Shown one piece after another: positions 44,368 to 53,468 of a stretch of DNA of 64,000 nt. The stretch is from the NCBI RefSeq assembly GCF_013340205.1, contig NZ_BJTG01000008.1, forward strand, positions 1 through 64,000. The letters run 5' to 3'. Numbering within the stretch: position 1 is the first letter of the stretch; the number at the start of each line of letters is the position of its first letter. The notes below the pieces were generated by a model. That model was not told the DNA's origin. It did not search any database and saw only the letters and a program-made list of their open reading frames with translations. The position numbers were made by a program, and so were the translations under genes. This DNA is from Anaeromyxobacter diazotrophicus (GTDB lineage: Bacteria; Myxococcota; Myxococcia; Myxococcales; Anaeromyxobacteraceae).

Positions 44368-45366
44368 TCAGTTCTCCGGCTTCATCTCGCGGTTCATGAG
44401 CTCGCCGACCGCCTGGCGGGGCGCCTGCCCCTCGTAGAGCACCCGGTACACCATCTCGCTGATGGGCATCTCGACCTTGAGCTTGCGGGCGAGGTCGCGC
44501 GTGCTGCGGGTGTTGAGCACCCCCTCCGCCACCTGGCCCAGCGCCCGCTGGATCTCCTCCAGCTTCTTGCCGCGGCCGAGCTCGAAGCCGACCGTGTGGT
44601 TGCGCGACTGCTCCGAGGAGCAGGTGAGGACCAGATCGCCCAGGCCGGAGAGGCCGGAGAGCGTCATGGGGTTCGCGCCCTTGCGCATGGCGAGCCGCCC
44701 GATCTCCGCCAGGCCGCGGGTGATGAGGGCGGCGCGCGCGTTGGCGCCGAACCCCATGCCGTCGGACAGGCCGGCCGCGATGGCGATGACGTTCTTGACG
44801 CAGCCGCCCACCTCCACCCCGACCACGTCGGTGCTGGTGTACGGACGGAAGGTGCGGGTGTGGAAGGCGTCCTGGACCTGCTTCGAGATGCGCTCCCACC
44901 GGCCGGCGATGGTGACCGCGGTGGGGAGCCCCGCCGCCACCTCCTTCGCGAACGACGGGCCGGAGAGGAAGGTGAGGTAGGGGTGCATCGGGACGGGCAG
45001 GACGTCCTCCAGCACCTCGCTCATGGTCATGAGCGTGTCCACCTCGATGCCCTTCGCCACCGAGCAGATCGGGACCCCGGCGTGGAGCAGCCGCTTCCCC
45101 TCGATGGCGACCTGCCGCACCGCCTGCGAGGGCACCGCGAACACCACCAGCTCGGCGCCCTCGAGCGCGCGGGCCATGTCCGGGGCAGCGGCGAGCGACG
45201 GCGGCAGCGCCAGCCCCGGCAGGTAGCGGGTGTTCTCGTGCTTCTGCGCGATGGCCTGCAGCACCGGCGCGTCCTTGTCCCACAGGCAGACCGGGAAGCC
45301 CTTCGAGGCGAGCGTGGCTCCGAGCGCGGTCCCCCAGGACCCGGCGCCGAGGATGGTGCAACGCAT
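44368..45366 (-). CDS. gpsA: NAD(P)-dependent glycerol-3-phosphate dehydrogenase
   Basis: A 332-residue enzyme making sn-glycerol 3-phosphate for phospholipids from dihydroxyacetone phosphate. N-terminal [10 protein letters not shown] dinucleotide fold, then [28 protein letters not shown], the catalytic lysine in [13 protein letters not shown] and the substrate-binding block [12 protein letters not shown]. All are hallmark GpsA sequences at normal length. ATG at 45366. It appears to be a single gene, upstream of the three-part regulator on the same strand with a 93-bp gap. Confidence 0.96.
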
Positions 45367-45487: not shown

Positions 45488-46567
45488 TCATGCCACGGCG
45501 GCGGCCACCAGCCGGGCGAAGAGCGCCGGGTGCCGCCCGAGCCGATCGAGGGCGCGGGCGCGCAGGGCGGGGCGCCGGGCCAGCGCGAGCACGAGCCGGG
45601 TCACCGCGGCGTAGCGCGCGTAGCGGAGCCGCTCGCCGCGCTCCCAGGCGGCGAAGGACGCCGCCCCGGCGCCGGCCTGGAGCGCCGCCGGCAGCGCCGC
45701 GCCGAGCGCCAGCGCGCCGGCCAGGGCGAGCGAGAGCCCCTCGCCGGTGATGGCGTCGAGGTACCCCGCGGCGTCGCCCAGCAGGACCAGCCGATCGAGC
45801 GTCCGGCGCCGGACGGCGCGGGCGAGCGGACCCGCGCCCGCGAGCGGCGAGTCGGTCGGGGCGCCGGCGAGCCGCGCCGCCAGCGCGGGGAAGCGGGCCA
45901 GGAGCCGCGGGTAGGCGTCCCGCGCCGCCTCCTCGCACAGGAGGGCGACGCCGACGCGGCCGGGCCCCGCCGGCGTGACGTACGCCTCGACCCCCTCCGC
46001 GAAGTGCACCTCGACCGCGTCGCTCCAGGGCGCGATCGCGAAGTGGCGGCGCAGGCCGAAGCGGCGCCCGGGCCGCGGCGGTCCCTCGAGCCCCTCGCGG
46101 CGCCCGATGGCCGAGGCGAGCCCGTCGGCGGCGACGAGGAGCCGCGCGCGCTCCTCGCCGGCGCCGGTCTCGACCCGGACCTCGCCGGCGAGGCGCCGGT
46201 GCCCGAGGACCGCCGCGCGCTCCCGCACCTCCGCCCCGGCGGCGCGCGCCGCGGCGAGGAGCGCCGCCGAGAGCGCGGTGCGCCGCACCCCGAGCCCGCC
46301 CGGCGCCGGCAGCCGCGCCTCGGCCACCCGCGCCCCGTCGATCCAGCGGATGGCGCGGACCGGCGCGTGGGCGGACGGGTCGAGGTGGGCGCGCGCTCCG
46401 AGCTCCTCCAGCGCGCGCACGCCCGCCGGCAGGAGGCCCTCCCCGCACGCCTTGTCGGCCGGGAGCGCGCCCCGCTCCAGGACGAGCGCGTCGAGCCCCC
46501 GCCGCGCGGCGGCGGCGGCGAGCGCCAGGCCGGCGGGGCCGCCGCCGGCGATGACGAGGTCACGCAC
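45488..46567 (-). CDS. FAD-dependent oxidoreductase of the geranylgeranyl-reductase/hydroxylase type
   Basis: A 359-residue flavoprotein. The FAD fingerprint is VIAGGGPAGLALAAAAARRG at the N-terminus, followed by LERGALPADKACGEGLLPAG, the motif shared by the geranylgeranyl reductase and aromatic hydroxylase group. The second FAD motif is LLGDAAGYLDAITGEGLSLAL. No membrane anchor is seen. It is the last gene of the type III PKS operon and overlaps the acyl-AMP ligase by 8 bp. By comparison with the phenolic-lipid operon srsABC, it may hydroxylate or oxidise the aromatic product, but reduction of an unsaturated chain is equally possible. Confidence 0.82.
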   Translation of the reverse strand: MRDLVIAGGGPAGLALAAAAARRGLDALVLERGALPADKACGEGLLPAGVRALEELGARAHLDPSAHAPVRAIRWIDGARVAEARLPAPGGLGVRRTALSAALLAAARAAGAEVRERAAVLGHRRLAGEVRVETGAGEERARLLVAADGLASAIGRREGLEGPPRPGRRFGLRRHFAIAPWSDAVEVHFAEGVEAYVTPAGPGRVGVALLCEEAARDAYPRLLARFPALAARLAGAPTDSPLAGAGPLARAVRRRTLDRLVLLGDAAGYLDAITGEGLSLALAGALALGAALPAALQAGAGAASFAAWERGERLRYARYAAVTRLVLALARRPALRARALDRLGRHPALFARLVAAAVA

Positions 46568-48320
46568 GCGGGAGCCGCGCCCGCGCGTAGCCGGCCCAGG
46601 AGCGCACCGCGGCCTTCGCCAGCGCCAGCGCGTTCACCCGCCGCGGCGGCGCGAGCGCGCCGGCCTGCCAGCGGCGCAGCGCCTCGCCGCGCCGCAGCTT
46701 GCCGGAGGAGGTGCGCGGGAGGGTGCCCGGCGCCAGGATCTCCACCGTGTGGGCGCGCACCCCCGCGCGCTCCAGCACCGCCTGCCGCGCCGCCTCGGCG
46801 CGCCGCGGGTCCTGCGCCGGATCGGCGCCGGCCGCGCGCTCGGCGAGGAGGAGCAGCTCCTCGCCCTCCCCCGCCGGATCGAAGCCGAGCGCCACCGCGC
46901 AGCCGGGGCGCAGGCCCTCCACCGCCGCCAGCGGCGCCTCCAGCTCGTCCGGCGCGTGGTTCGCGCCGCGGACGATGACGACGTCCTTGGCGCGGCCGTG
47001 GACGAACAGCTCGCCGCCGTCCACGAAGCCCAGGTCGCCCGTGTCGAGCCAGCCGCCGGCGAGCGCGCGCGCCGTCGCCGCCGGCTGGCCCAGGTAGCCC
47101 GCCATGACCGACGGCCCGCGCGCGAGGATGCGCCCGAGCCGGCCCGGCGGGAGGAGCGCGCCGTCCTCGCCGCGCACCGCCACCTCGACGCCCGGCACCG
47201 GGACGCCCACCGAGACCACCTCGCGCGGCCCGTCCTCGACCTCCCCGCGAGCGGCCAGCGCCGCCGGGTCGAGCCGGCGCGAGCGCCAACCGCGCCCCGG
47301 CGGCGTGAAGGTGACCGCCAGCGCCGCCTCGGAGAGGCCGTAGACCGGCGTCAGCGCGCGGGCGTCGAAGCCGAAGGGCGCGAAGCGCTCGGCGAAGCGG
47401 CGCAGCACCCGGGGCGAGACCGGCTCGGCGCCGTCGAGCGCGACCCGCCAGCAGCCGAGGTCGAGGCCGGCCAGGTCCTCGTCCCGCACGCGCTCGGCCG
47501 CGTAGGCGAAGGCGAAGCTGGGCGCGGGCGAGATGGTGCCGCGGTGGCGGGCCACGGCGCGCAGCCACAGCGCGGGGCGGGCGAGGAAGTGCTCGGGGGG
47601 GATGAGGACGCACGGTCCGGGGTGGGCGAGCGCGCCCAGCAGCCCGCCGATGAGCCCCATGTCGTGGTAGAGCGGCAGCCACGAGACGAGCCGGTCCGCC
47701 GGCCCGGGGCGGAGGAGCTGGAGCAGGGCGGCGGTCTGCGCGACCACGCTCCCGTGGGTGAGCGCGACCGGCTTCGGGTCCACCGTCGAGCCGGACGAGA
47801 ACTGCACCAGCGCCAGGTCGGAGGGGTCGACGCGCCGCTCGAGCGCGGGCCCGTCCGCGGACAGGTCCTCGGCCGCGGCGCAGCCGAGCGCCGGCCGCGC
47901 CCGCGCCACCACCTCCCCGAGCAGCCGCCGCACCGCGCCGCCGGCGACGAGGAGGCGCGCCCCCGAGACGCTCACCATGCGCGCCGTCGCGGCGAGGTAC
48001 TCGTCCATGCGCCCCAGGCGCACCGGCGGGTAGAGCGGCACCGGCACCGCCCCGGCGAGCAGCGCGCCGAAGAAGGCGTCGAGGAAAGCGGGCTCGGTGC
48101 GGAGCACCAGCGCGACCCGGTCGCCCGGCGCGATCCCGCGCGCGGCGAGCGCGGCCGCGGCGCGGCGGGCGCGGGCGTGGACCTCCCCCCAGCCGAGCGC
48201 CGTCGCGCGCTCGCGCAGGTCGAGGAAGGTGACGCCGCTCGGGTGGCGCGCGGCGCGGGCGAGCAGCGCCACCAGGTCGGGGGCCGCAGGCGCCGGCGGT
48301 GGGCCGCCGGAGAGGATCAC
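46560..48320 (-). CDS. Fatty-acyl-AMP ligase (FAAL-like)
   Basis: A 586-residue member of the adenylate-forming superfamily. The P-loop-like core is FSSGSTVDPKPVALTH (about 170), VSWLPLYHDMGLIGG is the hallmark of fatty-acyl-AMP ligases, TPVYGLSEAALAV is the A5 motif, GGWLDTGDLGFVDGGELFVHGRAKD holds the A7/A8 hinge and LPRTSSGKLRR carries the A10 lysine. FAALs activate fatty acids as acyl-AMP and pass them to an acyl carrier protein rather than CoA. The GTG start at 48320 overlaps the TGA of the ACP gene, which strongly suggests that this ACP is its partner. Confidence 0.88.
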   Translation of the reverse strand: MILSGGPPPAPAAPDLVALLARAARHPSGVTFLDLRERATALGWGEVHARARRAAAALAARGIAPGDRVALVLRTEPAFLDAFFGALLAGAVPVPLYPPVRLGRMDEYLAATARMVSVSGARLLVAGGAVRRLLGEVVARARPALGCAAAEDLSADGPALERRVDPSDLALVQFSSGSTVDPKPVALTHGSVVAQTAALLQLLRPGPADRLVSWLPLYHDMGLIGGLLGALAHPGPCVLIPPEHFLARPALWLRAVARHRGTISPAPSFAFAYAAERVRDEDLAGLDLGCWRVALDGAEPVSPRVLRRFAERFAPFGFDARALTPVYGLSEAALAVTFTPPGRGWRSRRLDPAALAARGEVEDGPREVVSVGVPVPGVEVAVRGEDGALLPPGRLGRILARGPSVMAGYLGQPAATARALAGGWLDTGDLGFVDGGELFVHGRAKDVVIVRGANHAPDELEAPLAAVEGLRPGCAVALGFDPAGEGEELLLLAERAAGADPAQDPRRAEAARQAVLERAGVRAHTVEILAPGTLPRTSSGKLRRGEALRRWQAGALAPPRRVNALALAKAAVRSWAGYARARLPRA

Positions 48321-48580
48321 GGCGAGGCCTCGGCCGAGCGCCCCTCGGCGCGCGCGGCGACGAAGCGGGCCAGGTCGGCCAGGGTGCGGAGACCGGCCGC
48401 GTCCTCCTCGCCCACGCGGACGCGGAAGTGGTCCTCCACCGCCACCACCAGCGAGAGGAGGGCCAGCGAGTCGAGCCGGCCGGCCAGCTCCTCGCCGTCC
48501 TCCACCGCCTGCTCGAGGCCGAGCTCCTCGCGCGCCAGCCGGCGGATCTCGGCCGCGACGGCCGCCTCGCGAGGCGTCAC
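48317..48580 (-). CDS. Acyl carrier protein
   Basis: An 87-residue acidic helical protein. The phosphopantetheine attachment serine is in GRLDSLALLSLVVAVEDHF (Ser about 38), matching the D-S-L motif of carrier proteins, and the following helix has the VEDHFRVRVGEEDAAGLRTLADL pattern of helix 3. It starts at GTG 48580 overlapping the methyltransferase stop and ends overlapping the FAAL start. It is probably loaded by the FAAL and hands the acyl chain to the type III PKS or another acceptor. Confidence 0.88.
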   Translation of the reverse strand: MTPREAAVAAEIRRLAREELGLEQAVEDGEELAGRLDSLALLSLVVAVEDHFRVRVGEEDAAGLRTLADLARFVAARAEGRSAEASP

Positions 48581-49218
48581 GGCGTCCCCCGGGGCATCGG
48601 CGGCGGGGGACGAGCCCCCGCCCTGCGATCATGGGGAGCGCCGGGGATGAACCGGGCGCGCGGCGACCCGGGGAGGAACCGCCCCCGCGCCTCGAACGCG
48701 CGCCGCCAGACGGGCCCGAGCGCGCGCTCCTCGGCGCGCACGCGCGCCGCCAGCACCGCGGCGTTGGCCACCGAGAAGAGCAGCGCGACGCCGGCGAGCC
48801 CCCAGGCGAGCGGCAGCGCGGCGAGCTCCACCGCCACCGCGAGGTAGTTCGGGTGGCGCACGAAGCGGTACGGTCCGCCCGTCACCGGCGGCGCGCCGGG
48901 CAGCACCAGCACCCGGGTCGTCCAGCGCTCGCCCAGCGCCGCGATGGCCCACCAGCGCAGCGCCTGCGCGGCGAGGGCGGCGGCCGCGGCGAGGAGCGCC
49001 CAGCGGGGCGGCGCCGGGCGGAGGAGCGCGCCGGCGGCGCAGGCGGCCAGGAAGGCGCCGTGCAGGAGGACCATGGCCGGGTAGTGGCCCGCGCCGTGCT
49101 CCACCGCGCCGCGCGCCCGGAGCGCCCGCGCGTGCCGCCGCGACAGGGCGAGCTCGACCGCGCGCTCGGCGGCGAAGAGCGCCACCAGGGCGAGGTAGGC
49201 GGCGCGCGGGCTCACCAT
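48577..49218 (-). CDS. Isoprenylcysteine carboxyl methyltransferase (ICMT)-family membrane methyltransferase
   Basis: A 213-residue membrane protein with about five hydrophobic segments. The C-terminal catalytic signature is present: GPYRFVRHPNYLAVAVELAALPLA, with RHPNY being the SAM-binding core of the ICMT/PEMT group, followed by ANAAVLAARVRAEERAL with the conserved R-x-E-E. The ATG at 49218 lies within the type III PKS stop region (7-bp overlap). In phenolic-lipid operons such as srsABC, an enzyme of this kind O-methylates the PKS product; that role is the likely one here. A Pro-rich tail ends the protein. Confidence 0.86.
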   Translation of the reverse strand: MVSPRAAYLALVALFAAERAVELALSRRHARALRARGAVEHGAGHYPAMVLLHGAFLAACAAGALLRPAPPRWALLAAAAALAAQALRWWAIAALGERWTTRVLVLPGAPPVTGGPYRFVRHPNYLAVAVELAALPLAWGLAGVALLFSVANAAVLAARVRAEERALGPVWRRAFEARGRFLPGSPRARFIPGAPHDRRAGARPPPPMPRGTP

Positions 49219-50279
49219 CGCAGGAGCACCAGCTCGGCGCAGAAGCCCGGCCCCATGGCGGCCATCACCCCGAGGTCCCCCGGCCGCGCCTCGCCCGACT
49301 CGAGCAGGTCGCCCAGCACGAACAGCACCGAGGCGGAGGAGAGGTTGCCGATGTCGCGCAGGGAGCGCCACGACCGCGCCAGGGCGCCCTCCGGCAGCGC
49401 CAGCGAGGTCTCCATCGCCTGCAGGATCTTGGGCCCGCCGGTGTGCGCCACCCAGTGCCGCACGTCGCGGCGGGTGAGGTGGTGCTCGGCCAGGAAGGCG
49501 TCCACGTCGCCGCCGAGGTGCTCGCGGATGACGTCGGGCGCGCCGGCGGAGAGCACGAGCTTGAACCCGGTGTCGACCACGTCCCACCCCATGACGCGCT
49601 CGGTGTCGGGGTAGAAGACGGAGCGGGTGGCGAGGACGCGCGGGCCCGCGGCGCCGCGGTCCCCGCCGGTGAGCGCGAGCGCCGCGGCGCCGTCGCCGAA
49701 GAGCCCGGAGGCGATGATGTTCGCCACCGAGAGGTCCTGCCGCTGCAGCGTGAGCGAGCAGAGCTCGACCGACAGGAGCAGCGCCACCTCGCCCGGGAAG
49801 GCGCGCAGGTAGTCGGCGGCGCGGGCGGTGCCGGCCGCGCCCGCCAGGCAGCCCAGGCCGAAGATGGGCGTGCGCTTCACCGACGGCTTCAGCCCGAGCC
49901 GGTTGACGAGGCGCGCGTCGATGGAGGGGGTGGCGACCCCGGTGACGGTGACGAAGAAGACGTGGTCCACGTCGCGCGGCCGGAGGCCGGCGCGGGCGAG
50001 CGCCTGCTGGATCGCCTCCGCCCCGAGCTCCTGCGCCACCTCGACGAACGCGTCGTTGCACTTCCGGAAGGAGTCGAGGGAGGCGTACGCCTCGAGCGGC
50101 AAGGCCAGGTAGCGGCCGGACACCTGCACCGCCCGGTGCAGGTCCTCGAGCCGCTCGACGTTGAAGTGCTTCTCGGCCCAGAGCCCGCGCAGCGCCTGGA
50201 TGAGCTCCTCCTGGTCGAGGTGGTGCCGCGGGAGGGCGCGGCCGACGGCCGTCAGGCGAGGTGCGGCATCGTGATGCAC
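49212..50279 (-). CDS. Type III polyketide synthase (chalcone/alkylresorcinol synthase family)
   Basis: A 355-residue homodimeric condensing enzyme. The catalytic triad is visible: Cys in IFGLGCLAGAAG (about 148), His in VAHTGGPK (about 285) and Asn in IGNLSSAS (about 320). The C-terminus GVMAAMGPGFCAEL is the family's GFG-like loop. Such enzymes extend an acyl starter with malonyl-CoA and cyclise it to resorcinols or pyrones. Start chosen at GTG 50279, with GGAG 5 nt upstream, over GTG 50285. First gene of an operon with methyltransferase, ACP, FAAL and flavoprotein, each overlapping the next. Confidence 0.93.
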   Translation of the reverse strand: MHHDAAPRLTAVGRALPRHHLDQEELIQALRGLWAEKHFNVERLEDLHRAVQVSGRYLALPLEAYASLDSFRKCNDAFVEVAQELGAEAIQQALARAGLRPRDVDHVFFVTVTGVATPSIDARLVNRLGLKPSVKRTPIFGLGCLAGAAGTARAADYLRAFPGEVALLLSVELCSLTLQRQDLSVANIIASGLFGDGAAALALTGGDRGAAGPRVLATRSVFYPDTERVMGWDVVDTGFKLVLSAGAPDVIREHLGGDVDAFLAEHHLTRRDVRHWVAHTGGPKILQAMETSLALPEGALARSWRSLRDIGNLSSASVLFVLGDLLESGEARPGDLGVMAAMGPGFCAELVLLRW

Positions 50280-50849: not shown

Positions 50850-53468
50850 ATGCGACCCGAGAGACTGACCACCAAGGCCCAGGAGGCCTTGCAGGGCGCG
50901 GCCGCCCAGGCCCGCCGGCGCGACCACCAGGCGGTCGACGTCGAGCACCTCCTCCTGGCGCTCCTCGAGCAAGAGGACGGCATCGCCCGTCCGGTGCTGG
51001 AGAAGATCGGCGCCGACCCGGCGCGCGTCGCCTCGCGGCTCGAGGACGAGCTGCGCACCGTGCCGAAGGTCGAGGGCGCCGAGCCCTACACCGCCAACCG
51101 GCTCCTCAAGCTCCTCGACAAGGCCGAGGACGCGGCGAAGAAGCTCAAGGACGAGTACGTCTCGACCGAGCACCTGCTCTGGGCCGCCTCCGAGGAGCGC
51201 GGCGCCGCGGGCGAGGCGCTGCGCGCGGCCGGCGCGACCCCCGACCGCATCCGAGACGCGGTGAAGGGCATCCGGGGCGGCGCCAAGGTCACCTCGCCGG
51301 AGGCGGAGAGCCAGTACCGCGCGCTGGAGAAGTACGCGAAGGACCTCACCCAGCTCGCGCGCGACGGCAAGCTCGACCCGGTGGTGGGCCGCGACGACGA
51401 GATCCGCCGGGTCATCCAGATCCTCTCCCGCCGCACCAAGAACAACCCGGTGCTGGTGGGCGACCCGGGCGTCGGCAAGACCGCCATCGTCGAGGGTCTG
51501 GCGCGGCGCATCGTGGACGGCGACGTGCCGGAGGGCCTGAAGGGGAAGCGCCTCCTCAGCCTGGACCTCGCCTCGATGGTGGCCGGCACCAAGTTCCGCG
51601 GCGAGTTCGAGGAGCGGCTGAAGAGCGTGCTCAAGGAGGTGACCTCGTCCGAGGGCCAGATCGTCCTCTTCATCGACGAGATGCACACCATCGTCGGCGC
51701 GGGCGCGGCCGAGGGGGCGATGGACGCCGGCAACATGCTGAAGCCGGCGCTGGCGCGGGGCGAGCTGCACGCCATCGGCGCCACCACCGTGAACGAGTAC
51801 CGCAAGCACATCGAGAAGGACCCGGCGCTGGAGCGCCGCTTCCAGCCGGTCTTCGTCGGCGAGCCCACCGTGCAGGACACCATCTCCATCCTGCGCGGCC
51901 TCAAGGACCGCTACGAGCTGCACCACAAGGTGCGCATCCAGGACGCGGCGCTGGTCGAGGCCGCCCGCCTCAGCCACCGCTACATCACCGACCGCTTCCT
52001 GCCGGACAAGGCGATCGACCTCATCGACGAGGCGGCGAGCCGGCTGCGCATCGAGATCGACTCGATGCCGACCGAGGTGGACGAGGTGCGCCGCCGCATC
52101 GGGCAGCTCGAGATCGAGAAGCAGGGGCTGCGCAAGGAGCGGGACGAGGCCTCGCAGGCGCGGCTCGCCCAGGTGGACAAGGAGCTCGCCGCCCTCAACG
52201 AGCAGTTCGCGACGCTGAAGGCGCGCTGGGACAACGAGAAGAAGGCGATCCAGGAGGTGGCCGCCGCCAAGGGCGAGATCGACCAGCTCAAGGGCGAGCA
52301 GGCCGCGGCCGAGCGCGCGGCCGACTTCAACAAGGCGGCCGAGATCAAGTTCGGCCGGCTCCCCGAGCTGCAGCGCAAGATCGAAGTGCAGCAGCAGCGC
52401 CTCGCCGAGCTGCAGAAGGGCGGCGCCATGCTGAAGGAGGAGGTGACGCCGGAGGAGATCGCCGAGGTGGTCTCGAAGTGGACCGGCATCCCGGTCTCGA
52501 AGCTCATCGAGGGCGAGGTCGAGAAGCTGCTCGAGATGGAGGCGCGGCTGGCGAAGCGCGTGGTGGGCCAGGAGGAGGCGGTGCGGGCGGTCTCGGCGGC
52601 GGTGCGCCGGGCGCGCTCGGGCCTGCAGGATCCTCACCGGCCCATCGGCAGCTTCATCTTCCTCGGGCCGACCGGCGTCGGGAAGACCGAGACGGCGCGG
52701 GCGCTGGCCGAGTTCCTGTTCGACGACGAGCAGGCGATGATCCGGCTCGACATGAGCGAGTACATGGAGAAGCACGCCGTGTCGCGGCTCATCGGCGCGC
52801 CCCCTGGCTACGTCGGCTACGAGGAGGGCGGCCAGCTCACCGAGGCGGTCCGCCGCCGGCCGTACGCGGTGATCCTGTTCGACGAGATCGAGAAGGCGCA
52901 CCACGACGTCTTCAACGTGCTGCTCCAGATCCTCGACGACGGGCGGCTCACCGACGGGCAGGGGCGCACGGTCGACTTCCGCAACGCGGTGGTCATCATG
53001 ACCTCCAACATCGGCTCGGAGGAGATCCAGCGGCTGGCGGGCCGCCCCGGCTCGCAGATGCAGGAGATCCGCGAGGCGGCGCTGGAGCACCTGCGCGGCG
53101 AGTTCCGGCCCGAGTTCCTGAACCGGGTGGACGAGATCGTCGTCTTCCGGCCGCTGACGCGCGAGGACATCGGCCGCATCGTCGAGATCCAGCTCGGCCG
53201 GCTCCGCAAGCTGCTCGAGGACCGCAAGCTCACCCTCGAGCTCACCGACGGCGCGCGCGAGACCATCGCCGACGCGGGGTACGACCCGGTCTACGGCGCC
53301 CGGCCGCTCAAGCGCGCCATCCAGCGGCTGGTGCAGGACCCGCTGGCCCAGAAGATCCTGCGCGGCGAGTTCAAGCCCGGCGACCACGTGGTGGTCGAGG
53401 AGGGCAAGGGCGAGACCCTCGACTTCAGGAAGGGCGAGCGGCCGGTCGAGGTCGCCACCGTTCACTGA
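50850..53468 (+). CDS. clpB: ATP-dependent disaggregase ClpB
   Basis: An 872-residue Hsp100 chaperone that, with DnaK, dissolves protein aggregates. Clp_N repeats (1-145, [14 protein letters not shown]), first AAA+ domain (Walker [37 protein letters not shown]), a long coiled-coil middle domain (about 400-530) and a second AAA+ domain ([29 protein letters not shown]) are all in order. The C-terminal domain ([19 protein letters not shown]) is intact. Upstream CTTGCC and a C-rich stretch faintly resemble a heat-shock sigma promoter. The stop overlaps the convergent truA stop by 7 bp. Confidence 0.97.

Follow-up and report, generated by a model that had tools for sequence, protein, structure and literature searches.

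Organization of the five-gene operon

In the window, a 64,000-nucleotide stretch of DNA from Anaeromyxobacter diazotrophicus, the minus strand carries five open reading frames (ORFs) with zero internal stops on translation. In transcription order, this single strand encodes a type III PKS of the FtpA type (49212..50279), an ICMT-family membrane methyltransferase in an SrsB-type position (48577..49218), a stand-alone ACP (48317..48580), a stand-alone fatty acyl-AMP ligase (FAAL; 46560..48320), and an FAD-dependent oxidoreductase of the UbiH/geranylgeranyl-reductase superfamily (45488..46567). The PKS stop and the ICMT start overlap by 7 nt, the ICMT/ACP and ACP/FAAL junctions by 4 nt each (GTGA), and the FAAL/FAD junction by 8 nt. 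The ORFs, their translations, and these overlaps bear out the first-pass annotation, which had described five genes on one strand overlapping at every junction, and its span of 45488-50279 is consistent with the PKS start, a GTG at 50279 with GGAG just before it. The FAAL start was placed at the GTG at 48320, overlapping the ACP stop. A 690-aa ORF (46560-48632) was considered as the FAAL gene and rejected, the stretch up to 48632 being a mere open frame across the ACP gene. Since GC at the third codon position reached 0.97-0.98 in all five genes, all five are coding. The downstream neighbor is a glycerol-3-phosphate dehydrogenase gene (44368-45366, minus strand) and the upstream neighbor encodes a Clp-family ATPase (50850-53468, plus strand); as both flanking genes are housekeeping genes, the operon is self-standing.

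Active-site features of the gene products

The PKS matched both chalcone/stilbene synthase models (PF00195 and PF02797), and structural database comparison revealed M. tuberculosis Pks11 as its nearest solved structure (PDB 4jao, E 1e-101), with CylI, the cylindrocyclophane type III PKS, also among the nearest. The catalytic triad Cys146-His281-Asn314 (P0001 numbering) was invariant in 122 aligned PKS sequences, and Trp234, located in a GWDV motif that aligns with Pks11, was kept in 115 of them. A Trp is reported as conserved at the cyclization position of the resorcinol-forming enzymes FtpA, SrsA, PKS10, PKS11, and ArsB (PMC5916927); from the Pks11 alignment, we infer that Trp234 is this residue, placing a Trp at the ArsB/PKS11 cyclization position of the window enzyme as would be expected of a resorcinol-forming type III PKS. 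The genome holds a single PKS of this type III family. The methyltransferase matched PF04140 (6e-26), and its HPN motif, together with the R/E of the C-terminal motif, was conserved in about 101 orthologs. In the ACP, which matched PF00550 (PP-binding, 1.5e-7), the 4'-PPant attachment residue Ser38 (LDSL) was invariant among 86 aligned ACPs, and two PPTase-family genes are available for it in the genome.

The ligase matched the AMP-binding family PF00501 (5e-65) and was assigned to the FAALs rather than to the acyl-CoA ligases by its family scores and by an extra segment of the FAAL type. Its top NCBIfam model was the FAAL PRK09192, although the 433 bits fall short of that model's curated cut-off (600). 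Second came PRK07768, a model named as a CoA ligase (403 bits); further FAAL models scored 244-291 bits and the general CoA ligase PRK06187 far lower (175 bits). The best PDB matches were likewise FAALs (3pbk and others). Between the YGLSE and SVGVP motifs the protein has 38 residues, compared with 17-19 in the genome's other measurable ligase-like frames, in agreement with the FAAL-specific insertion that has been described (PMC8460268).

The oxidoreductase, with conserved GGGPAG and GD motifs and a match to PF01494 (FAD_binding_3, 2e-14), is encoded by the operon's final gene in loci where all five are present. It stayed under the NCBIfam cut-off for every specific function. Its best model was TIGR02032 (GG-red-SF), which would point to a geranylgeranyl-reductase-type enzyme acting on the lipid chain instead of a ring hydroxylase or oxidase. 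However, that match (121 bits) is below the cut-off of 159, UbiH-type hydroxylases and FAD_binding_3 match the protein as well, and its role in the operon corresponds to that of SrsC, a monooxygenase to which PMC6669644 ascribes hydroxylation, so that a chain reductase seems improbable to us and a ring-oxidizing flavoprotein is preferred. Taken together, the Pfam and NCBIfam matches and the intact active-site motifs back the five gene names of the first-pass annotation.

Conservation of the operon in Myxococcota

PKS matches were found in 130 of 195 genomes of the phylum at E <= 1e-30. The five window proteins were compared by tblastn with 121 fetched loci; many of the incomplete ones run off the end of a contig, and in some cases one contig was fetched twice. 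The complete order PKS-ICMT-ACP-FAAL-FAD, whose synteny in Myxococcota had been put forward as a check, was present in 61 of the 121 loci, some of them near-duplicates; such recurrence argues that the arrangement is not due to chance. One of these loci (L106), from Myxococcus xanthus AM003, carries the identical five genes in the same order and on one strand, with 68% (PKS), 52% (ICMT), 46% (ACP), 59% (FAAL), and 52% (FAD) identity to the window proteins. In a quick PKS tree, in which branches outside the Myxococcales rows are long and unsure, the closest partner of the window sequence is L119, from its own genus (98% SH-aLRT), and the pair falls among the rows of family f1 and inside those of the Myxococcales. 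A Myxococcus-like operon also turned up in L079, whose record bears the title Comamonas sp. KCTC 72670 and whose PKS is 90% identical to that of genome G121; the genome is probably mislabelled.

Hayashi et al. (2011, ChemBioChem 12:2166) reportedly described the M. xanthus type III PKS FtpA, acting with a fatty acyl-AMP ligase, as a producer of alkylresorcylic acid; the paper is cited for FtpA in PMC10896814, for FAALs in PMC8460268, and also in PMC11837247, whose Table 2 enters alkylresorcylic acid with C18:0 and 'in vitro data'. In addition, a 2016 paper (PMC5006271) likened the cluster of another bacterium, comprising a stilbene synthase, a methyltransferase, an AMP-dependent synthetase, and a monooxygenase, to the pathway for alkylresorcylic acid in M. 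xanthus, in both sequence and organization. The first-pass view that no operon of exactly this make-up had been described thus did not hold, since M. xanthus has the same order and its organization has already served as a reference. With the gene set, strand, and order shared by L106 and 60 further loci, and a PKS that groups with myxobacterial PKSs and retains the Cys-His-Asn triad, the window operon is very probably a further member of the M. xanthus ftp-type operons, in an Anaeromyxobacteraceae version, and not a new kind; it opens no new mechanism. What the comparison does reveal is wide retention of the phenolic-lipid operon of M. xanthus across the taxonomic order, the Anaeromyxobacter family included, despite a 2025 survey (PMC12224551) that filed related clusters as 'alkylpyrone' and gave the genus Anaeromyxobacter as lacking one.

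Natural variants and pairing of FAAL with ACP

Among the non-truncated loci, ACP and FAAL were both present in 61, both absent in 19, and FAAL alone was recorded in 4; ACP without FAAL was not seen among the fetched loci. In one of the four FAAL-only loci (L065), the search had overlooked an ACP ORF bearing a DSM site, and another (L111) lies on a contig of equal length, apparently the same one. The apparent absence of ACP was likewise rejected for L109, L062, and L059, which, like L065, do have an ACP-like ORF, its site reading DSM or DSL. A FAAL-ACP pair in a genome that lacks the PKS would speak against the model, and such cases were looked for by a FAAL search of the 195 phylum genomes. 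It found no intact locus of a close FAAL in a PKS-less genome: the three candidates (G020, G133, and G146) were all rejected, the operon being cut by a contig end in each.

Other parts of the operon vary between lineages. In the Anaeromyxobacter-like genus g2, seven of the eight readable loci (L121, L122, L124, L125, L126, L127, and L136, from genomes G031, G032, G034-G037, and G039) have no ICMT gene between PKS and ACP and read PKS-ACP-FAAL, plus FAD where the contig allows, with a PKS-ACP gap of 5-53 nt; the exception, G033, kept the gene. A search for ICMT-family genes elsewhere in the seven genomes gave weak matches or none. Thus, ICMT-less operons occur in an Anaeromyxobacter-like genus, although PMC12224551 gives Anaeromyxobacter as being without a related cluster. 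The reverse composition, a PKS-ICMT-FAD core of the srsABC kind without ACP and FAAL, was found in Sorangium (L103, L104, and L107), in Saccharopolyspora flava (L110), and in genus g17; loci of this kind also include L150 and L171-L174, and some of them are cut by contig ends. These operons indicate that relatives of the PKS can do without FAAL. Some Archangium/Hyalangium-type loci carry PKS-ACP-FAAL and neither ICMT nor FAD.

Two further arrangements were observed. In the draft genome G053, ICMT-ACP-FAAL-FAD follows mere remnants of a PKS frame (L212:5650-7400), and an intact PKS gene stands by itself on a different contig (L135:7327-8385), a split that may reflect rearrangement or an assembly effect. 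In L153 and L167, PKS-ACP-FAAL has beside it, on the opposite strand, another PKS (28-30% identity) accompanied by a FAAL of its own (37%), which gives the look of an additional type III PKS-FAAL pair.

It is conceivable, albeit doubtful, that FAAL-ACP constitutes an interchangeable loading module added to a PKS-ICMT-FAD core, and that lineages lacking either ICMT (Anaeromyxobacter-like genomes) or ACP-FAAL (Sorangium, g17) make predictably different lipids. If so, the natural variants would test whether the hand-off from ACP to a type III PKS is obligatory. In any case, the variants without the methyltransferase and those without ACP-FAAL are ready material for testing the contribution of each part to the lipid.

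Proposed pathway and alternative explanations

From free fatty acids, the operon probably produces lipids of a waxy, phenol-type nature. By homology, the FAAL would convert a free long-chain fatty acid to fatty acyl-AMP and load the acyl chain onto the holo-ACP, as modelled on the FAAL-ACP pair of M. xanthus. The type III PKS would then take the chain from the ACP and could extend it with malonyl-CoA, and perhaps also methylmalonyl-CoA units, before a ring closure of the kind reported for FtpA gave an alkylresorcylic acid or resorcinol. Finally, by analogy with SrsB, SrsC, and the FtpA literature, the ICMT-type enzyme would methylate the product and the flavoprotein would oxidize its ring, yielding methylated phenolic or quinone lipids. 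This route, from FAAL activation, ACP loading, and hand-off to the PKS through ring closure, methylation, and oxidation, is the one the first-pass annotation had proposed, and on the sequence evidence it is the likely one. In its favor count the joint retention or loss of ACP and FAAL, the invariant PKS triad, and the M. xanthus gene order. That FAAL-ACP supplies the starter is presumably correct as well: FAAL-to-ACP loading has been demonstrated for the M. xanthus pair MxFAAL Q1CXX0 and MxACP Q1CXW9 (PMC8460268), which may differ from the ftp pair, and PMC11837247 places a FAAL in alkylresorcylic acid production by an M. xanthus type III PKS.

Alkyl-alpha-pyrones of the alkylpyrone-407/393 type, in place of resorcinol or quinone lipids, are a rather unlikely product of the operon, although the labels given to similar clusters would suggest them. 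Surveys file similar myxobacterial clusters as alkylpyrone (BGC0001831-like, 20-63% similarity; PMC12224551), alkylpyrone-407 is listed with a C18:0 FAAL (PMC11837247), and a T3PKS cluster on scaffold 26 of Citreicoccus inhibens was called alkylpyrone-407/393 by antiSMASH (54%; PMC8538283). The five-gene operon itself is carried on C. inhibens NODE_26 (L094), apparently the same contig as scaffold 26, and the product class may therefore include pyrones. However, these alkylpyrones came from a cluster of strain MCy9487 (PMC9231227) that may not be orthologous, the comparison here being via the antiSMASH labels given in papers; moreover, Trp234 is conserved, and the nearest relative that has been studied, FtpA, is an alkylresorcylic acid producer according to published reports. 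Resorcinol-type lipids hence remain our preferred product.

That the PKS uses acyl-CoA while FAAL-ACP serves another acceptor encoded elsewhere is very unlikely: related PKS-ICMT-FAD operons do occur without FAAL-ACP, and mycobacterial type III PKSs and FtpA have been described with acyl-CoA starters, long-chain in the case of FtpA (PMC5916927), but the ACP and FAAL genes lie inside the operon with overlapping starts and are retained together, the 195 genomes yielded no intact FAAL locus where the PKS is missing, and FAALs strictly reject CoA (PMC8460268).

Comparison with known systems

The closest known system is the M. xanthus ftp-type operon, which is like the window operon in its five genes, their order, and their strand; the two differ in host, Myxococcaceae as opposed to Anaeromyxobacteraceae, and in the tighter packing of the window genes, with no difference of kind seen. 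In the Azotobacter arsABCD system, the acyl chain also reaches the type III PKS without free acyl-CoA, but it is supplied by a type I FAS (ArsA/ArsD) and not by a FAAL-ACP pair as proposed for the window.

The Streptomyces griseus srsABC operon shares the PKS, the ICMT-type methyltransferase, and the flavoprotein monooxygenase, and the parallel drawn to it at first pass is supported by the report of SrsB as an isoprenylcysteine carboxyl methyltransferase (PMC6669644). The three common genes may work alike in both systems. Nevertheless, srsABC has no FAAL or ACP and relies on acyl-CoA starters according to the same source, whereas in the window the ACP and FAAL genes stand between ICMT and FAD, which sets the operon apart from the three-gene srsABC type. 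The hierridin operon hidABC and the planctomycete alkylresorcinol operons similarly share a methyltransferase, an oxidoreductase, and a type III PKS, but have the PKS last in order and, as described, no FAAL-ACP (PMC10896814).

FAAL-ACP priming is found in the cylindrocyclophane pathway (CylA FAAL, CylB ACP, and CylI type III PKS), which also ends in a resorcinol-making type III PKS (PMC8086630, PMC11837247) but differs from the window operon in having type I PKS modules interposed between CylB and CylI, a halogenase, and the dimerizing CylK. Lastly, the cluster for alkylpyrone-407/393 (BGC0001831; Hug et al. 2019) also comes from myxobacteria and combines a type III PKS with a C18:0 FAAL; it differs in its pyrone product, and its likeness to the myxobacterial operons is drawn via antiSMASH labels in papers.
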